Below, piece after piece: positions 46,489 through 52,859 of a stretch of 64,000 nucleotides of DNA. This stretch comes from Sphingomonas sp. NBWT7 (GTDB lineage Bacteria > Pseudomonadota > Alphaproteobacteria > Sphingomonadales > Sphingomonadaceae), in contig NZ_CP043639.1 of the NCBI RefSeq assembly GCF_014217605.1, forward strand, positions 62,001 through 126,000, read 5' to 3'. The notes beneath the pieces were generated by a model. The model searched no databases and was not told where the DNA came from. It saw only the letters and a program-made list of their open reading frames with translations. The position numbers and the translations under genes are program-made. Every line of letters starts with the position of its first letter. Positions within the stretch are counted from its first letter, which is position 1.

Positions 46489-48792
46489 CTAGCGCAGCCG
46501 CTCGATCGCCTGCGCCAGTGCGACGTACAATTTGCCCATGTCCGACGACAGCAGCGTGACGCCGAGTGGCGAGCCGTCGCGCTGCGTCAGGATCGTGCGC
46601 AGCATCGCCTCGAAATCGTGGATGTAGCGGTTGACCTGGTCGCGGAAGCCGAGATCGTCGTCGTACAGGCGCGCGATCTCGCGCTGCTCGACGCCATCGA
46701 GCAGCCGCACCGCGCGCCGCGTGAAGACGCCGCGGTCGCCCTTCAGATACGCTGCCCAGGCACTGTCTGCGACGTCGGGCGCGAAGCTGCGCGTAATGTC
46801 GATCGCGGCCGAGTTGAGCGCCTCGATCAGCAGCGACGCGCGGCGGGCGAAGCTCTCCTGACTCGCTTCCTCCTGTTCGGCGCGCGCCACCTCGAGCCGC
46901 GTATCGACCGAGGCTGCCGCCGCGTCGATCGCCTTGATCTGCTCGTCGAGCCGCAGTGCGGCGCGGTTGGCTGCCTCCACTGCCGTCTCCGCACTGACGG
47001 CGATCTGCGCGATCTGACCGTCGAGCCCGGCGTCGACCGCGCGGCGCAATGCCGCCGCGCCCGATTGCTCCAGCGCCTCCGCCGCTTCGGGAATGACGCG
47101 CGCCAGCACCTCGCGCGCGTGATCCGCCGCCTGTGTCGCGGTGTCGCGGACGCGCAGCAGCGCCTCGAGCAGACGCGGCGCGGCTTCCTCGGCGAAGCGG
47201 TTCGCGCGGTCTGCCGCCTCGTCGACCATCTGCCCCATCGCATCGGCCTTGGCGCGGCCGGTCGACAGCGTCTCGAGCAGCGTACCGCTCAACGTGTCGA
47301 CGTTGCTGCGCTGGTCCGCCACCACCTGCGCCACCGCCTCGATCGCGCTGTGTGTGCTCTCTGCCGCAGTGACGAGCGCGAGCAGTTCGGGTTTCGCCGC
47401 CACGACCACCGCCTTCGCCGCGATCACCCGCGCGTCGAGCCGGTCGACCGCGGCCGGCAGCGTCTCGTCGATCTCACGCGCAGCCGCGTCGAGCGCGAGC
47501 AGCAGCGATTCGGTGGTCGCGATCGCCTTGGTCGCCATCATGTCGCCGGCGACGAGCGCCTCGGTCATCGCGCCCGCCGAGCCGCCCAGCGCGCTGATCG
47601 ACGCGGCGAGATGCTGCGACCGCTCGACGCCGAGCCGGTGCAGTTCGTCCAGCTCGCTTCCGACGCGTGCGATCCCCACTTCGAGGTCACCGACCAGGCC
47701 GTCCGCGTTCGACCGCTGCGCATCGAGCCGCGCGGTGATGCGGTCAATGACGATCTCGATCACCCCGATCCGCTCGGCGAGCGATTCGGCGCTCTCGCGC
47801 GCCGCGGCATCCAGCGCGGCCTGATTCGCGCCGACCATCGCGAGCATCGCGTCGCCCTGCGCGGCGATCCCCTTGCGCGATTCGTCGACCGCATCGGCGG
47901 TGCGCGACAGCAGGGCGTCGACCGCACCCGTCATCTCCGCCGTGACGGCCTCCAGCCGGACGCCCGCGGTCTCGCTGGTTGCCTCCATCCGCGCGATATG
48001 CGCGGCAAGCTTCTGTGCCGCGCCGCCGGCCATTGCTTCTGCCTCGCGCCCGCGATCGGCGAGGGCGACGATCTGCGCGTCGAGCGCTGCCGCCTGCTCG
48101 CCTGCGGCCAACCCGGCGCGCTCGATCTTGCCCGCCATCGTATCGGCCTCGGCCTGCGCGCGCGGCATCGTGGCGAGCAGCACCGACAGATTGTTCTGCG
48201 CATTGCCTGCCGCCTCGGCGAGCGAACGTGCGTGGACGTCGGCCTGGTCGATTTCTTCCGACAGGCCGCGACCAATCGCCGACAGCCGCGCAGTGGCCGC
48301 ATCGCCGATCGTGCCCAACTGTTGCACCTGTTCCGCCAGCCGCAGGCGATTGTCCTCCAGCGCGGCGGCGAGCGCCCCTACCGTTTGCTCTAGCGCGGCG
48401 GCTTCGCCACGCATCGCCCGCGCGGTGGCGGCGAAGCGCATCGCCTCCGCCCGGCTCGTCCGCAGTGCGACCAACCACACCACGCCGGCCAGGACAGGTA
48501 CCGCGACGAGCGCTGCGGCGAATTGCGCCACCGCCAAAGCCGTCATCGCCGCGAACTGCCCGCGCGCCAGCCAGATCAGCGCGACGACCCAGCCCAGCGA
48601 TACCGCAGCAAGCGCGATCGGCCCGATATTGCGGAGCAGGGAGGGCGCGACATAGCCGTCCTCGACCTCTTCCGCAGGCTGGTCGAAGGCGAAATGCTCC
48701 GCCAGGGCGACGGGCGCCTCGGCCTCGGTCGGCTGCGGCTGATCGCTTGCGTCACGCGAGCGAAAATCGATCACTGATGGCCCCCCGGTCAT
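46489..48792 (-). CDS. large membrane-anchored coiled-coil protein, TipN-like architecture
   Basis: A ~767-residue protein. Residues ~1-60 are polar. Two adjacent membrane helices follow (NIGPIALAAVSLGWVVALIW and VAQFAAALVAVPVLAGVVWL). Then come ~530 residues rich in Ala, Glu, Arg and Leu heptads, i.e. a long cytoplasmic coiled coil. A conserved-looking C-terminal domain ends DMGKLYVALAQAIERLR. Two N-terminal helices, a very long coiled coil and a compact C-terminal end resemble the Caulobacter polarity factor TipN; chemoreceptor-like or RmuC-like roles are alternatives. ATG 48792 (MTGGPSVIDFRSRD) is preferred; ATG 48879 would overlap the divergent gene's start. It is divergent from the HPt-like run. 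Confidence 0.7.
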   Translation of the reverse strand: MTGGPSVIDFRSRDASDQPQPTEAEAPVALAEHFAFDQPAEEVEDGYVAPSLLRNIGPIALAAVSLGWVVALIWLARGQFAAMTALAVAQFAAALVAVPVLAGVVWLVALRTSRAEAMRFAATARAMRGEAAALEQTVGALAAALEDNRLRLAEQVQQLGTIGDAATARLSAIGRGLSEEIDQADVHARSLAEAAGNAQNNLSVLLATMPRAQAEADTMAGKIERAGLAAGEQAAALDAQIVALADRGREAEAMAGGAAQKLAAHIARMEATSETAGVRLEAVTAEMTGAVDALLSRTADAVDESRKGIAAQGDAMLAMVGANQAALDAAARESAESLAERIGVIEIVIDRITARLDAQRSNADGLVGDLEVGIARVGSELDELHRLGVERSQHLAASISALGGSAGAMTEALVAGDMMATKAIATTESLLLALDAAAREIDETLPAAVDRLDARVIAAKAVVVAAKPELLALVTAAESTHSAIEAVAQVVADQRSNVDTLSGTLLETLSTGRAKADAMGQMVDEAADRANRFAEEAAPRLLEALLRVRDTATQAADHAREVLARVIPEAAEALEQSGAAALRRAVDAGLDGQIAQIAVSAETAVEAANRAALRLDEQIKAIDAAAASVDTRLEVARAEQEEASQESFARRASLLIEALNSAAIDITRSFAPDVADSAWAAYLKGDRGVFTRRAVRLLDGVEQREIARLYDDDLGFRDQVNRYIHDFEAMLRTILTQRDGSPLGVTLLSSDMGKLYVALAQAIERLR

Positions 48793-48877
48793 GCCGCCGG
48801 GTGTATCACGATTCGATCGCGCCGAAAGCGAATAGCGGAAACTTGCGATTAAGCGTTGCCTGCTAGCGACTTGCTCC

Positions 48878-49171
48878 ATGGCCTATGATCCCGGAGCTAT
48901 CGATGCGACGCTCGCTGCGGCCGTGGGGGACGATCCGGCGTTGATCGCCGAGCTTCGCGCCTCCTTCGTCGAGAGCGCCAAGCGTGGGTTCGAGGCGCTC
49001 GCCGCCGCGTCGGACGACGAGGCGTGGCGGGCGGCGGCGTGGCGGCTGAAGGGGCTGGCCGCGAGTTTCGGCGCGGTGCGGCTGATGGCACTCGCGACCC
49101 AGGCGACCGCGCTCTCGCCGCAGGACGCCGCGATGCTGCGCAAGCTGCGCCGCGCGATCGACCGGCTGTAG
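48878..49171 (+). CDS. degenerate HPt-domain protein without histidine
   Basis: A 97-residue all-helical protein with the HPt outline: DPALIAELRASFVESAKRGF as the first helices, then AAWRLKGLAASFGAVRLMAL, which aligns with the HPt active-site motif A-H-x-L-K-G-x-A-x-x-(L/F)-G. The phosphoacceptor His is replaced by Trp55, and the whole protein contains no histidine. It therefore cannot act as a phosphotransfer intermediate in the usual way and may instead dock a kinase or receiver. It heads a same-strand run with the membrane protein, DUF2336 and kinase genes. I recall relatives with the same WRLKG in sphingomonads, so the loss looks fixed. Confidence 0.75.
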   Translation: MAYDPGAIDATLAAAVGDDPALIAELRASFVESAKRGFEALAAASDDEAWRAAAWRLKGLAASFGAVRLMALATQATALSPQDAAMLRKLRRAIDRL

Positions 49172-49229
49172 CCGTATCGCTTGACGGGCGGCGTTGCCCA
49201 AGGGCGGGACAGCGCCTAAGCGCGCGGCA

Positions 49230-50420
49230 ATGCTCGCCGGGCTAATCTTTGCCGTACAGGATGCCGAGGACCGGCCCGGCGCGCTTGCCGCCACCCTGCC
49301 GTTCGCCGGCATGACGGTGATCGAATATCAGGCACGGCTGCTGATCGAGGCGGGCGCGTCGCAGATCGTCGTCGTCGTTGCGCGATTGACGCCCGAATTG
49401 CTCGGCGCGGTCGCGCGGATCGGGCGGCGCGGCGTGACGATCGATACGGTACGCAGCGCGGCTGAGGCGTCCGCGCGACTGCACCCGCTGTCGCACCTGC
49501 TGGTTCTCGCCGACGGACTCGTCACGACGCAGGCGGTGTTGGCGCCGGTGGTGCGTACCCCGGGCGACGTCATGCTCGTCGTTGCAGAGAGTGAGGCTAC
49601 CGCCGGCTACGAGCGTGTCGGCGGCGGCGATGCATGGGCCGGCCTTGCGCGGCTCGACGGGCGGCGTCTCGCCGAAGTGGCGGCGATGCCGCGCGATTAT
49701 GACGTGCAATCCGCGTTGCTCCACGCCGCCGCGCAGGCAGGCGCGCGCCGGCTGGTGCTGCCGGATGACGAGGCGCAAGCCGGGCACGGCATCGAGCGGC
49801 GCCGCGATGCGCTGGAGGCACGCAGCCAAGCTGTGGTGTCCGCCACGCTGGCCGCGCGGACCGGCTGGTTTGATCGCTGGATCGTGAAGCCGCTCGCCCG
49901 GCTTGCTTTGCCGCCGCTGATGCGCCGCCACGTGCCGACGCCGGCGCTGGCGGGCGCCGCCGCGCTCGTCACGCTCGGCGGGCTCGGCGCCTTGTGGGCG
50001 GGGCAGATGACCGCGGGGCTGCTTGCCGCGCTGGCTGGCGTGGCAACCGCCGCGCTTGCTTCCAGCTTCGCCTGGCTGCGCGACGAGACCGCGCTGGCGC
50101 GGTGGCTCGGCTGGCTGAGTCTCGGCACCCCTGCCGCCGCCGCGCTGCTGCTCGGCCACATCCTCGACGCCGAGACCGGAGAGCGGACCGCAACGGTGCT
50201 CGCGCTTGCGCTGATCGTCGCGGGCGGGCTGGGGACGCGCGCGATCGGTGAGGCCCGCGAGCCGTGGTGGGGCGATCCGCCGGGCTACCTGCTGCTCCTT
50301 GCCGCTGCGACGATCCTCGGCCTGCCGCTGCTCGGGCTCGCACTTACCGGCGTTTATGCCGCCGTGACGCTTGGCCATGCGATCGAGCGGCTTCGTGCGC
50401 GAGGCTTAGCAGCGCTTTAA
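49230..50420 (+). CDS. membrane protein resembling an NTP-transferase / CDP-alcohol transferase fusion, motifs missing
   Basis: A 396-residue protein. Residues 1 to ~200 have a Rossmann-like alternation (LPFAGMTVIEYQARLLIEAG, QIVVVVARLTPELL) similar to sugar nucleotidyltransferases such as inositol-1-phosphate cytidylyltransferase. The GxGxR nucleotide signature is absent. Residues ~210-250 (RTGWFDRWIVKPLARLALPP) resemble the start of CDP-alcohol phosphatidyltransferases fused to such domains. Six or so membrane helices follow, but the catalytic DG-AR-G-D-D motif cannot be found. It is probably a non-catalytic derivative. ATG 49230 is chosen; TTG 49194 gives a short basic extension. It lies 58 nt after the HPt-like gene. 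Confidence 0.6.
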   Translation: MLAGLIFAVQDAEDRPGALAATLPFAGMTVIEYQARLLIEAGASQIVVVVARLTPELLGAVARIGRRGVTIDTVRSAAEASARLHPLSHLLVLADGLVTTQAVLAPVVRTPGDVMLVVAESEATAGYERVGGGDAWAGLARLDGRRLAEVAAMPRDYDVQSALLHAAAQAGARRLVLPDDEAQAGHGIERRRDALEARSQAVVSATLAARTGWFDRWIVKPLARLALPPLMRRHVPTPALAGAAALVTLGGLGALWAGQMTAGLLAALAGVATAALASSFAWLRDETALARWLGWLSLGTPAAAALLLGHILDAETGERTATVLALALIVAGGLGTRAIGEAREPWWGDPPGYLLLLAAATILGLPLLGLALTGVYAAVTLGHAIERLRARGLAAL

Positions 50421-50445
50421 CGCAACGCTTGCTAGAGCCGCCACC

Positions 50446-51522
50446 ATGTCGGCCGATCCCAACGACGCCTTGCGCGCGCCCCAGGTGACCGTCGCGCCGC
50501 TCGTCGCGCGCGCGGCGGTGGCCGATCGTCGTGCCGATCGGCGGTTGCAGACCGCGATCGAGGACTTCTTCCTGGCCGAGAACGATCGCCTCGACGATCG
50601 CACCCGCGCCGCGATCGGCACGCTGCTTACCGATGCGATCGGCGCGATCGCGGGTGAGATCGTGGGTCATGCGGCGCGGCAACTCTCGGGCCAATGGCCG
50701 CGGCCCGGCGGGGCAGGGCTCGTCAGTCGGCTGAGCGCGTCGGGCCTTCTGCGCGACGCGGGATTGATGAGCGAGCTGCTCGGACAGACCCGGCAGGATC
50801 TTCTCGCCGATGCTCTGCGCAGCAATCGTGCGCCCGGCGCGCAGCCTGTGCTGCTGGCGCAGCTCGCCGGCTGTGGTGACGGGGTGATCGCCGCCGCCGC
50901 CCGGCTGTATCTTCAGACGGAGAACCGGCGTCGAACCGTGGGCGGCGCGCATGGCAGCGATTTTCCCGCTCACCTGCATCGCCAGCTGATCTGGTGGACC
51001 GCGGCGGCGGTACGCGAGCAGCTGATCGCCGCAGGCGGACGACTTGACCGGCTCGATCGCGCGCTCGTTGCCGGGGCGCAGCGCAGCATCGCCGCGCACG
51101 ACGACGATGATCGGCTCGACGCCGTCGCGCTGCGGCTCGCCGCCGCGATCGACGCGCGGCCGGAGGAACTGCCGGATCTGCTCGCCGGTGCGCTTGACGA
51201 GGGATATCCGGCCCTGTTTTGTGCGATCCTCGCACACGCACTCGGCATCGATTTCGGCGAGGCGCGCGCGCTGGTGCTAGATCCTGAGGGCGACGTGCTG
51301 TGGTTTGCCCTGCGTGCGCATCACGCAGATCGCGCGTCGATCGCGCGGGTCGGGCTGGCGCTCGCCGACGCCGATCCGCGCCGCGACATCGAGGCGTTCG
51401 CCGACGATCTCGACGCGATCGCCGCGATAACCCCCGATGATGCGCGCGTCGCGCTCGCCACGCTGTCGCTGCCGGCAGATTTCCGCGCCGCGGTGCGCGC
51501 GCTCGGGCGGATCGGCGCGTGA
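50446..51522 (+). CDS. DUF2336 domain protein
   Basis: A 358-residue soluble, Ala/Leu/Arg-rich helical protein. The part around residues 30-200 (QTAIEDFFLAENDRLDDRTR, then LSASGLLRDAGLMSELLGQT, then RLYLQTENRRRTVGGAHGSD) fits DUF2336, an alphaproteobacterial family with HEAT-like helical repeats and unknown function. No signal peptide, membrane helix or catalytic motif is visible. Stacked helical repeats suggest a protein-binding scaffold. The stop overlaps the GTG of the histidine kinase-like gene (GTGA), so the two are made together and may act as partners. Confidence 0.75.
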   Translation: MSADPNDALRAPQVTVAPLVARAAVADRRADRRLQTAIEDFFLAENDRLDDRTRAAIGTLLTDAIGAIAGEIVGHAARQLSGQWPRPGGAGLVSRLSASGLLRDAGLMSELLGQTRQDLLADALRSNRAPGAQPVLLAQLAGCGDGVIAAAARLYLQTENRRRTVGGAHGSDFPAHLHRQLIWWTAAAVREQLIAAGGRLDRLDRALVAGAQRSIAAHDDDDRLDAVALRLAAAIDARPEELPDLLAGALDEGYPALFCAILAHALGIDFGEARALVLDPEGDVLWFALRAHHADRASIARVGLALADADPRRDIEAFADDLDAIAAITPDDARVALATLSLPADFRAAVRALGRIGA

Positions 51523-52859
51523 TGATGATCGATCCACCGATCGTGTCGGCGAAGCTCGACGCCGCCGATCGCCTGATCGACGCTGATCCCGCCTTCCTCG
51601 CGCTCAACGAGCGTGCGGGTGGCGCGATCGGCGCAACGCTGGCGACGCCGCAGCTCGCCACGATGGTGCGGCTCGCCCGGCGGCTGCGCATCCTCGTCTC
51701 GCGCGCCGTCACGATCGCCGACGCCGACCTCGATCTCGACTGCTGGGTGCGCGCGACGCCGACCGACCAGGGCGTGTCGCTGGCAATCTCGCCGACGCGT
51801 GAACGGCCCGCGTGGCGGTCACCCAGCGCGAGCGGCGCGGTGCCGCCGCCCGCCGATGCCGATTGGATCTGGGAAACCGATGCCGGCCTGCGCCTGCAGC
51901 GCATCGCACCCGATGCCGGCGCCCGCTTTGGCTTCGATGCCGACGCAGCGCTCGGGAAGCCGTTGACCCGCCTGTTCGCGCTCGAAGGCGGCGACGACGG
52001 CGTGCTGACGCTGCTCGAGGCGGTGGCGGCGGTCGAGGATTTCGACGGCCAGCCCGCCGTGCTGCGCGAGAGCGGCGCGGCGGTGACGCTAGCCGGGCAC
52101 GTCCGCCGCGACGGCAGCGGGGCGTTCGCCGGGTTCGTGGGTGGCACGTTCCACGAATGCGTTTCGTCCGCGCGGGAGGTGGAGGCGCTCGGTGACACGT
52201 TCAATCGGCGGCTCGACACGATCCTGCGCGGCCCGCTAGGACGGATCGTCGCCAATGCCGACAGCATCAATGCCGGCACCGAGGGCCCGATCGATCCGCA
52301 TTACGCCGATTATGCCGCGGATATCGCCAGCGCCGCGCGTCACCTGATGGGACTGATCGACGATCTGGCCGACATGCAGGCGATCGAGCGCGACGACTTC
52401 ACCGTCGAGGACGAGGGCATCGACCTTGCCGACGTGACACGGCGCGCCGCGGGTCTGCTCGCGGTGCGTGCCGCGCACGGCGACGTCACGATCGACCGCG
52501 GCGATCTCGATACGCCGCTCGCCGCGCACGGCGAGTTCCGCCGCACGCTGCAGATCATGGTCAATCTGATCGGCAACGCGGTGCGCTACTCGCCGCGCGG
52601 CGCCACGATCTGGCTCAAGCTGCAGCGCGACGGGGACCGCGCGATCGCGATCGTCGCCGATCAGGGCAAGGGGATCGCGCCCGAGGATCACGAGCGTATC
52701 TTCGGCAAGTTCGAGCGCGTCGATCCCGCCGAAGCCGGCGGCAACGGCCTCGGCCTCTACATCGCGCGCCGCTTGGCGCGCGCGATGGGCGGGGACCTGA
52801 CGGTGGACAGCGCCCCGGACGCCGGCGCGCGCTTCGTGCTGACGCTGCCCGCCGCCTAG
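51519..52859 (+). CDS. histidine kinase-like protein lacking the H-box histidine
   Basis: A 446-residue soluble protein with no membrane helix. A PAS-like sensor lies around residues 115-205 (DWIWETDAGLRLQRIAPDAG). The dimerisation helix reads FNRRLDTILRGPLGRIVANA (from residue 228). Against the canonical SHELRTPL this gives DTILRGPL, so the His is replaced by Thr. The ATPase domain is intact: N box VNLIGNAVRYSPRG, G1 VADQGKGIAPED, F box IFGKFERVD, G2 GGNGLGLYIARRLARAMGG. It may bind ATP and signal by conformation, as Caulobacter DivL does with Tyr in place of His. GTG 51519 overlaps DUF2336. The stop is shared (CTAG) with the convergent glycosyltransferase. Confidence 0.82.
   Translation: MMMIDPPIVSAKLDAADRLIDADPAFLALNERAGGAIGATLATPQLATMVRLARRLRILVSRAVTIADADLDLDCWVRATPTDQGVSLAISPTRERPAWRSPSASGAVPPPADADWIWETDAGLRLQRIAPDAGARFGFDADAALGKPLTRLFALEGGDDGVLTLLEAVAAVEDFDGQPAVLRESGAAVTLAGHVRRDGSGAFAGFVGGTFHECVSSAREVEALGDTFNRRLDTILRGPLGRIVANADSINAGTEGPIDPHYADYAADIASAARHLMGLIDDLADMQAIERDDFTVEDEGIDLADVTRRAAGLLAVRAAHGDVTIDRGDLDTPLAAHGEFRRTLQIMVNLIGNAVRYSPRGATIWLKLQRDGDRAIAIVADQGKGIAPEDHERIFGKFERVDPAEAGGNGLGLYIARRLARAMGGDLTVDSAPDAGARFVLTLPAA

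Follow-up and report, generated by a model that had tools for sequence, protein, structure and literature searches.

The histidine-kinase-like protein D of Sphingomonas sp. NBWT7 is a genuine, selected pseudokinase that has lost its phospho-acceptor, keeps its ATP site and is encoded beside two other degenerate enzymes. Its gene is the last of four, A to D, which follow one another on the plus strand of the 64,000-nucleotide stretch of DNA analysed here (the window). As the acceptor and the nearby catalytic residues are lost while the ATP contacts are held, D is best explained as needing nucleotide binding. Sequence comparison demonstrates the loss of the H, E and T positions together with a nearly invariant ATP site, the existence of signature-bearing relatives, the gene order and the selection; a scaffold function, a role in polarity and a link to DivK are inferred.

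Results

Gene A (48878..49171, plus strand) encodes an HPt-like protein of 97 amino acids without any His, in which Trp55 (codon 49040-49042, plus strand) occupies the former phospho-His site. B (49230..50420, plus strand) combines a nucleotidyltransferase-like N-terminus with a hydrophobic helical half resembling CDP-alcohol phosphotransferases and has lost both signatures; its residues Ala274-Trp282 (50049..50075, plus strand) fill the alignment columns that hold DxxDGxxAR in motif-keeping homologues. The frame of B opens at a TTG at 49194, and the consensus start in the genus is the ATG at 49230. C (50446..51522, plus strand) is a DUF2336 protein. D (51519..52859, plus strand) joins a DHp domain lacking the phospho-acceptor to a conserved HATPase_c domain, with Thr234 (codon 52218..52220, plus strand) at the position of the H-box His. 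C and D are the only close pair of the row. They share the GTGA overlap described in the sequence-only reading, the GTG being one of three candidate starts of D, with further in-frame ATGs at 51522 and 51525; the positions, frames and common strand of the four genes had also been given correctly there. A adjoins E (46489..48879, minus strand), a divergent gene for a coiled-coil protein with two likely membrane helices as judged by eye. If E is read at its longest, its start codon and that of A overlap in a CCATGG at 48877-48880. Homologue lengths place the true start of E probably near 48792, and the protein is 96% identical to one labelled Sphingomonas sp. TZW2008.

B, C and D were present in 60/60 other genomes of the genus searched, and they lie adjacent on one strand in all 20 loci fetched from it. 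Omega, computed with an experimental Biopython module from stop-to-stop frames that include some upstream codons, ranged from 0.03 to 0.39 over 28 close pairs (NG86, the seven closest disjoint pairs per gene), with 0.03-0.20 for D, 0.03-0.21 for C, 0.10-0.39 for B and 0.09-0.29 for A. Judged by their sequences, A, B, C and D are working genes under purifying selection. Pseudogene decay could account for catalytic residues that are gone and replaced by variable substitutes. It is refuted by omega values that are not near 1, by the presence of B, C and D throughout the genus and by the nearly invariant ATP site, unless the low omega reflects protein stability only, and we find it hardly credible. 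The earlier proposal that the locus reflects purpose rather than decay is borne out by the same values, by the constant B-C-D order and by ATP-site residues that are essentially invariant where H, E+1 and T+4 vary. At the level of the family, D was matched in 122 genomes and not found in 27/149 at the threshold used; its function is therefore dispensable for the family.

D matches HATPase_c at 4.9e-27 in Pfam with HisKA under the cut-off, and its N-terminal part is PAS-like by eye and by the PAS matches of three orthologues from other families. Thr234 stands where an active HisKA kinase has its phospho-acceptor, and the N, G1, F and G2 boxes are intact, so that the description of D as a kinase with an intact ATPase and no H-box His was accurate. 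The genome yielded 42 HATPase_c matches, 30 of which were inspected; 29 are histidine kinases, and as 27 of these 29 keep the His, its absence from D is more than chance. The two inspected kinases without His are D and the orthologue of DivL.

The survey of D in the family took in the first 59 family loci, then 40 weaker or doubtful loci and then 11 more; L299, L369 and L370 are other kinases and do not enter the final count, and of the 122 genomes of the family in which D was matched, 59 lie outside the H-box readings, as do half (30/60) of the other genomes of the genus. Of the 92 family sequences read, six have an intact H-box and 86 are degenerate (31 from the genus, 55 from other genera). 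The six intact forms, all SHELRTPL, come from basal members of the family (L360, L361, L362, L364, L366 and L367), and SHEL[RK]TPL is found in 20/20 loci of other families. Intact His residues in close relatives, the observation that the sequence-only reading had named against itself, did not turn up: none of the 31 genus sequences, that of NBWT7 included, has an intact H-box, and one has a stray His. Such boxes occur only in the basal members and in other families, where the C-D order is kept as well.

The residue at the His site varies widely, both in the first 59 family loci (R 18, A 9, T 8, Q 7, K 7, G 4, S 3, H 1, N 1, E 1) and in the 86 degenerate sequences (R 19, P 19, T 9, A 9, Q 8, K 7, G 4, S 3, E 3, H 2, D 2, N 1); the Pro in 19 of the latter means that the residue there is not phosphorylatable. 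An acidic E+1 is present in none of the 86, T+4 is Thr in five and Asn in two, and no degenerate sequence retains two of H, E+1 and T+4. The stray His of L030 (from the genus) and of L263 stands in neither case in a HELRTP motif. Other DHp residues are largely kept, R+3 in 78/86 and P+5 in 81/86. In a tree of 93 D sequences rooted on other families, the intact forms of the family are basal and the His label requires three changes, which we read as a single loss together with the strays L030 and L263. The tree was built by a quick method with the H-box columns excluded, and it has several long branches and one other-family row (L076) inside.

The ATP site behaves differently from the H-box: seven columns (N353, the G1 Asp and Gly, F and three G2 glycines) are invariant in 86/86 degenerate sequences, and the eighth, N349, is kept in 85/86. 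A working kinase domain would likewise be expected to keep its ATP site strictly conserved. The ATPase domain of D might still be catalytic and act in trans, phosphorylating the DHp His of another kinase within a heterodimer or a residue other than His; the conservation of the eight columns speaks for this, in contrast to DivL, a weak binder of the analogue TNP-ATP. However, no second kinase gene was noticed beside D in an unsystematic look at the fetched loci, and the R+3 and P+5 that D keeps in its DHp fit homodimer or response-regulator contacts equally well. We consider catalysis in trans unlikely. Self-phosphorylation in cis on a residue other than the lost His is less probable still. Its best candidate is His275 in the second DHp helix, kept in 85/86 degenerate sequences and in 19/20 other-family orthologues, but the acidic residue of the H-box has been lost along with the acceptor (0/86), and as His275 is just as well conserved in proteins with the normal His, it is probably structural. 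The reading that we prefer is a D that changes shape with ATP and binds a partner.

Window B on its own matched no enzyme family in Pfam. A profile of its family (65 sequences) matches IPCT-DIPPS of Archaeoglobus fulgidus (PDB 4mnd, 5.4e-9) and also phosphatidylinositol-phosphate synthases, and 4mnd is the best Foldseek match of the AlphaFold model (pLDDT 95.8; 2.8e-10, TM 0.61/0.59). B has the fold of the CDP-alcohol phosphotransferases (PF01066), and hydropathy and model show a front resembling a nucleotidyltransferase and a back of hydrophobic helices. It shares the two-domain fold of IPCT-DIPPS but has neither catalytic signature, window B showing neither a PF01066 match nor DxxDGxxAR. The proposed likeness to a nucleotidyltransferase/CDP-alcohol transferase without the motifs was thereby confirmed. 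Individual family members match CDP-OH_P_transf in 5/65 and NTP_transf_3 in 17/65 cases.

DxxDGxxAR is kept in only 5/84 distinct B homologues (G116, G129, G137, G184 and G199), which we call putatively live in the sense that the signature is present. In these five the motif is shortened in its second half, with Glu at the expected third Asp as read from the alignment, and the N-terminal nucleotidyltransferase signature is already absent. In all five genomes B is followed by a relative of inositol-1-phosphate synthase (INO1; PF01658 in the two tested), then by a nucleotidyltransferase and a Wzi-like gene (L366, L277, L284, L286 and L293). B, INO1, nucleotidyltransferase and Wzi-like gene apparently make up an inositol-lipid cluster in some Sphingomonadaceae. 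INO1 was not found at 1e-12 in the other loci scanned, many of which had flanks of 1.5 kb only. A Wzi-like gene also lies near a DUF2336-kinase pair outside the family (L065, L074).

One locus, L366 of genome G184, holds signature residues of A, B and D alike. On a single strand it carries A (AHRLKG), B (DGVDGKLAR, with a CDP-OH_P_transf match of 1e-8, above the cut-off), INO1, nucleotidyltransferase, Wzi-like gene, C, D (SHELRTPL) and a bestrophin-like gene. Two further loci show mixed states. L277 (G116) has a motif-bearing B and inositol genes between B and C-D, with a degenerate D, and L367 (G111) reads E-B-C-D, with a live H-box in D and a B without the motif. D and B consequently lost their signatures separately, on different branches. 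An RNase J tree covered 61 genomes, a selection that takes in 25 without D as well as G215, and was rooted by choice on four live-D genomes; in it G111 and G184, which also have a live D, fall outside the clade formed by G116 and the rest.

A scores just under the cut-off of the Pfam Hpt family (PF01627; 8.8e-5, 23.1 against 24.6 bits), which its orthologue L114 passes at 30.9 bits. The claim of an HPt-like protein devoid of His holds: with Trp55 at the site and no His elsewhere, A lacks the phosphorylatable His of an HPt, which is present in 6/6 fetched orthologues, of 10 matches, from other families. The His column reads L 12, W 11, A 3 in 26 genus rows and M 9, W 7, L 7, H 3 plus seven singles in 33 rows from other genera; within the family, His is found in L366 (the live locus of G184), L166 and L179. 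Since this column is variable and the residues after it are kept over the 59 family rows (R 59, L 55, G 53), A is a degenerate HPt whose former active site varies. E is its constant neighbour, also in other families (L114-L119) where A keeps its His; in layout, E presumably resembles TipN.

The sequence-only reading had taken the four genes for one module; in that form this is not supported, and their unity holds only in part. B, C and D hold their order, not only in the genus loci but in 19/20 other-genus loci that contain all three (the exception is L277). A follows E instead: found in 45 of the 60 other genus genomes (E 0.001) and missing in 15, it adjoins B in only 11/20 fetched genus loci, and in 14 further genus loci (L100-L113) it is located elsewhere, beside E in 14/14. 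B in turn occurs without C-D in 14/20 fetched loci, most of them picked for want of a D match; no D was found in 13 of these genomes, and in the remaining one, G151, C-D lies several kb off. The histories of A and B are thus partly independent of that of C-D. These data could mean that two or three units under separate selection, made up of E-A, B and C-D, are mere neighbours. The stable B-C-D order in the genus and beyond speaks against this, as do the 33 distinct other-genus loci with A close to B (from 81 scanned and centred on B or D, which gives no unbiased count) and the live cluster of G184, in which A, B, C and D already stand together on a single strand. We rate separate units as rather unlikely.

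The score of C lies above the cut-off of DUF2336 (PF10098; 36.3 against 34.6 bits), as originally assigned, and its model (pLDDT 91.1) is all-helical, with the helical repeat of that assignment staying putative. Against the SpbR equivalog NF052659 (cut-off 400 bits) it gave no match up to E 0.1. The pairing of a DUF2336 protein with a kinase extends beyond the family: in a scan by name, which kept 80 of 91 loci found, an adjacent kinase is present in 76/80 loci of Kordiimonas, Emcibacter, Iodidimonas, Eilatimonas, Sneathiella and relatives. The PAS histidine kinase and DUF2336 protein of the Kordiimonas-type bacteria and Sneathiella share the pair, the order and the HATPase with C-D and differ in the kinase, whose H-box is canonical by pattern in 74/80 loci.

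Discussion

Our explanation of the locus as a whole is tentative, and we hold it with a little less than even confidence. B-C-D, with A and E beside it, would descend from an ordinary enzyme cluster composed of an HPt protein, a CDP-alcohol phosphotransferase with genes for inositol-phosphate supply, a DUF2336 adaptor and a PAS histidine kinase. The phospho-acceptor of D would have been lost once, in the lineage of most Sphingomonadaceae read; the inositol genes and the active-site residues of A and B would likewise have been lost, with purifying selection retained on all. D may now be a non-phosphorylating, ATP-liganded dimer whose shape changes with the nucleotide and which would use its conserved DHp surface to bind a partner, in the manner of DivL with DivK~P, with C as its helical adaptor and B as a membrane anchor. 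The least certain parts are the response regulator or partner that D reads and the participation of A. A more far-reaching version, in which a phosphotransfer and inositol-lipid operon was converted stepwise to a non-catalytic, ATP-gated scaffold for signalling or cell polarity, with G184, G111 and G116 as intermediates, is possible but doubtful.

Histidine-kinase-type pseudokinases are few in the literature found: DivL, a version of ChrS and possibly CCNA_03265. The version of ChrS from Corynebacterium is reportedly of this type. Like DivL, D is a full-length histidine-kinase core without the phospho-His that is kept by selection. In contrast to DivL, which reads SYELRTPL in the orthologue of this genome, D has lost E+1 and T+4 too, keeps its ATP signature and is paired with DUF2336. 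DivL of Caulobacter (PDB 4q20) is described in PMC4211667 as a sensor that acts by binding DivK~P, without phosphorylation, and as a weak binder of the nucleotide analogue TNP-ATP. D itself was considered as the DivL orthologue and rejected: that place belongs to L324, which has PDB DivL as best match (8.9e-34) and Tyr at the site, and DivL is not among the PDB matches of D up to E 1e-15. CCNA_03265 of Caulobacter, whose kinase domain is reported to be without the conserved His (PMC11481889), is unlike D a hybrid kinase with a receiver domain. The openly licensed literature contained no description of this locus that we could find. SpbR offers a further comparison, as the other-family DUF2336 partner L065 matches NF052659 at 154 bits, far below the cut-off of 400, and window C does not match it. 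Wang and Bowman are said to have linked SpbR of Caulobacter to cell-pole development in 2019.

The genome has its own DivK orthologue (L343; PDB DivK as best match, 1e-35). Across 149 family genomes, DivK is missing in 17/27 without D versus 4/122 with D (at thresholds of 1e-18 and 1e-50). Absence from the match lists is the basis on which seven of the D-less genomes and one DivK-less genome were classed. Two corrections apply, as the D match of G121 is a different kinase (L369) and a contig end probably truncates D in G215. Random independent pairings on the RNase J tree, with G208 (36% match only) counted as DivK-less, mostly gave 2-3 concordant and 0-1 discordant pairs (sign-test p 0.25 to 1). 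With so few independent losses, the co-occurrence falls short of significance once the tree is taken into account and is a hint only.

A single family thus holds forms of the locus with and without the signature residues, together with intermediates, and the role of a histidine kinase that lacks its acceptor and keeps its ATP site can be tested directly in it. In Sphingomonadales the DivJ-PleC-DivK system is reported to be degenerated or lost (PMC2877005), and the locus may bear on how these bacteria cope with that condition.
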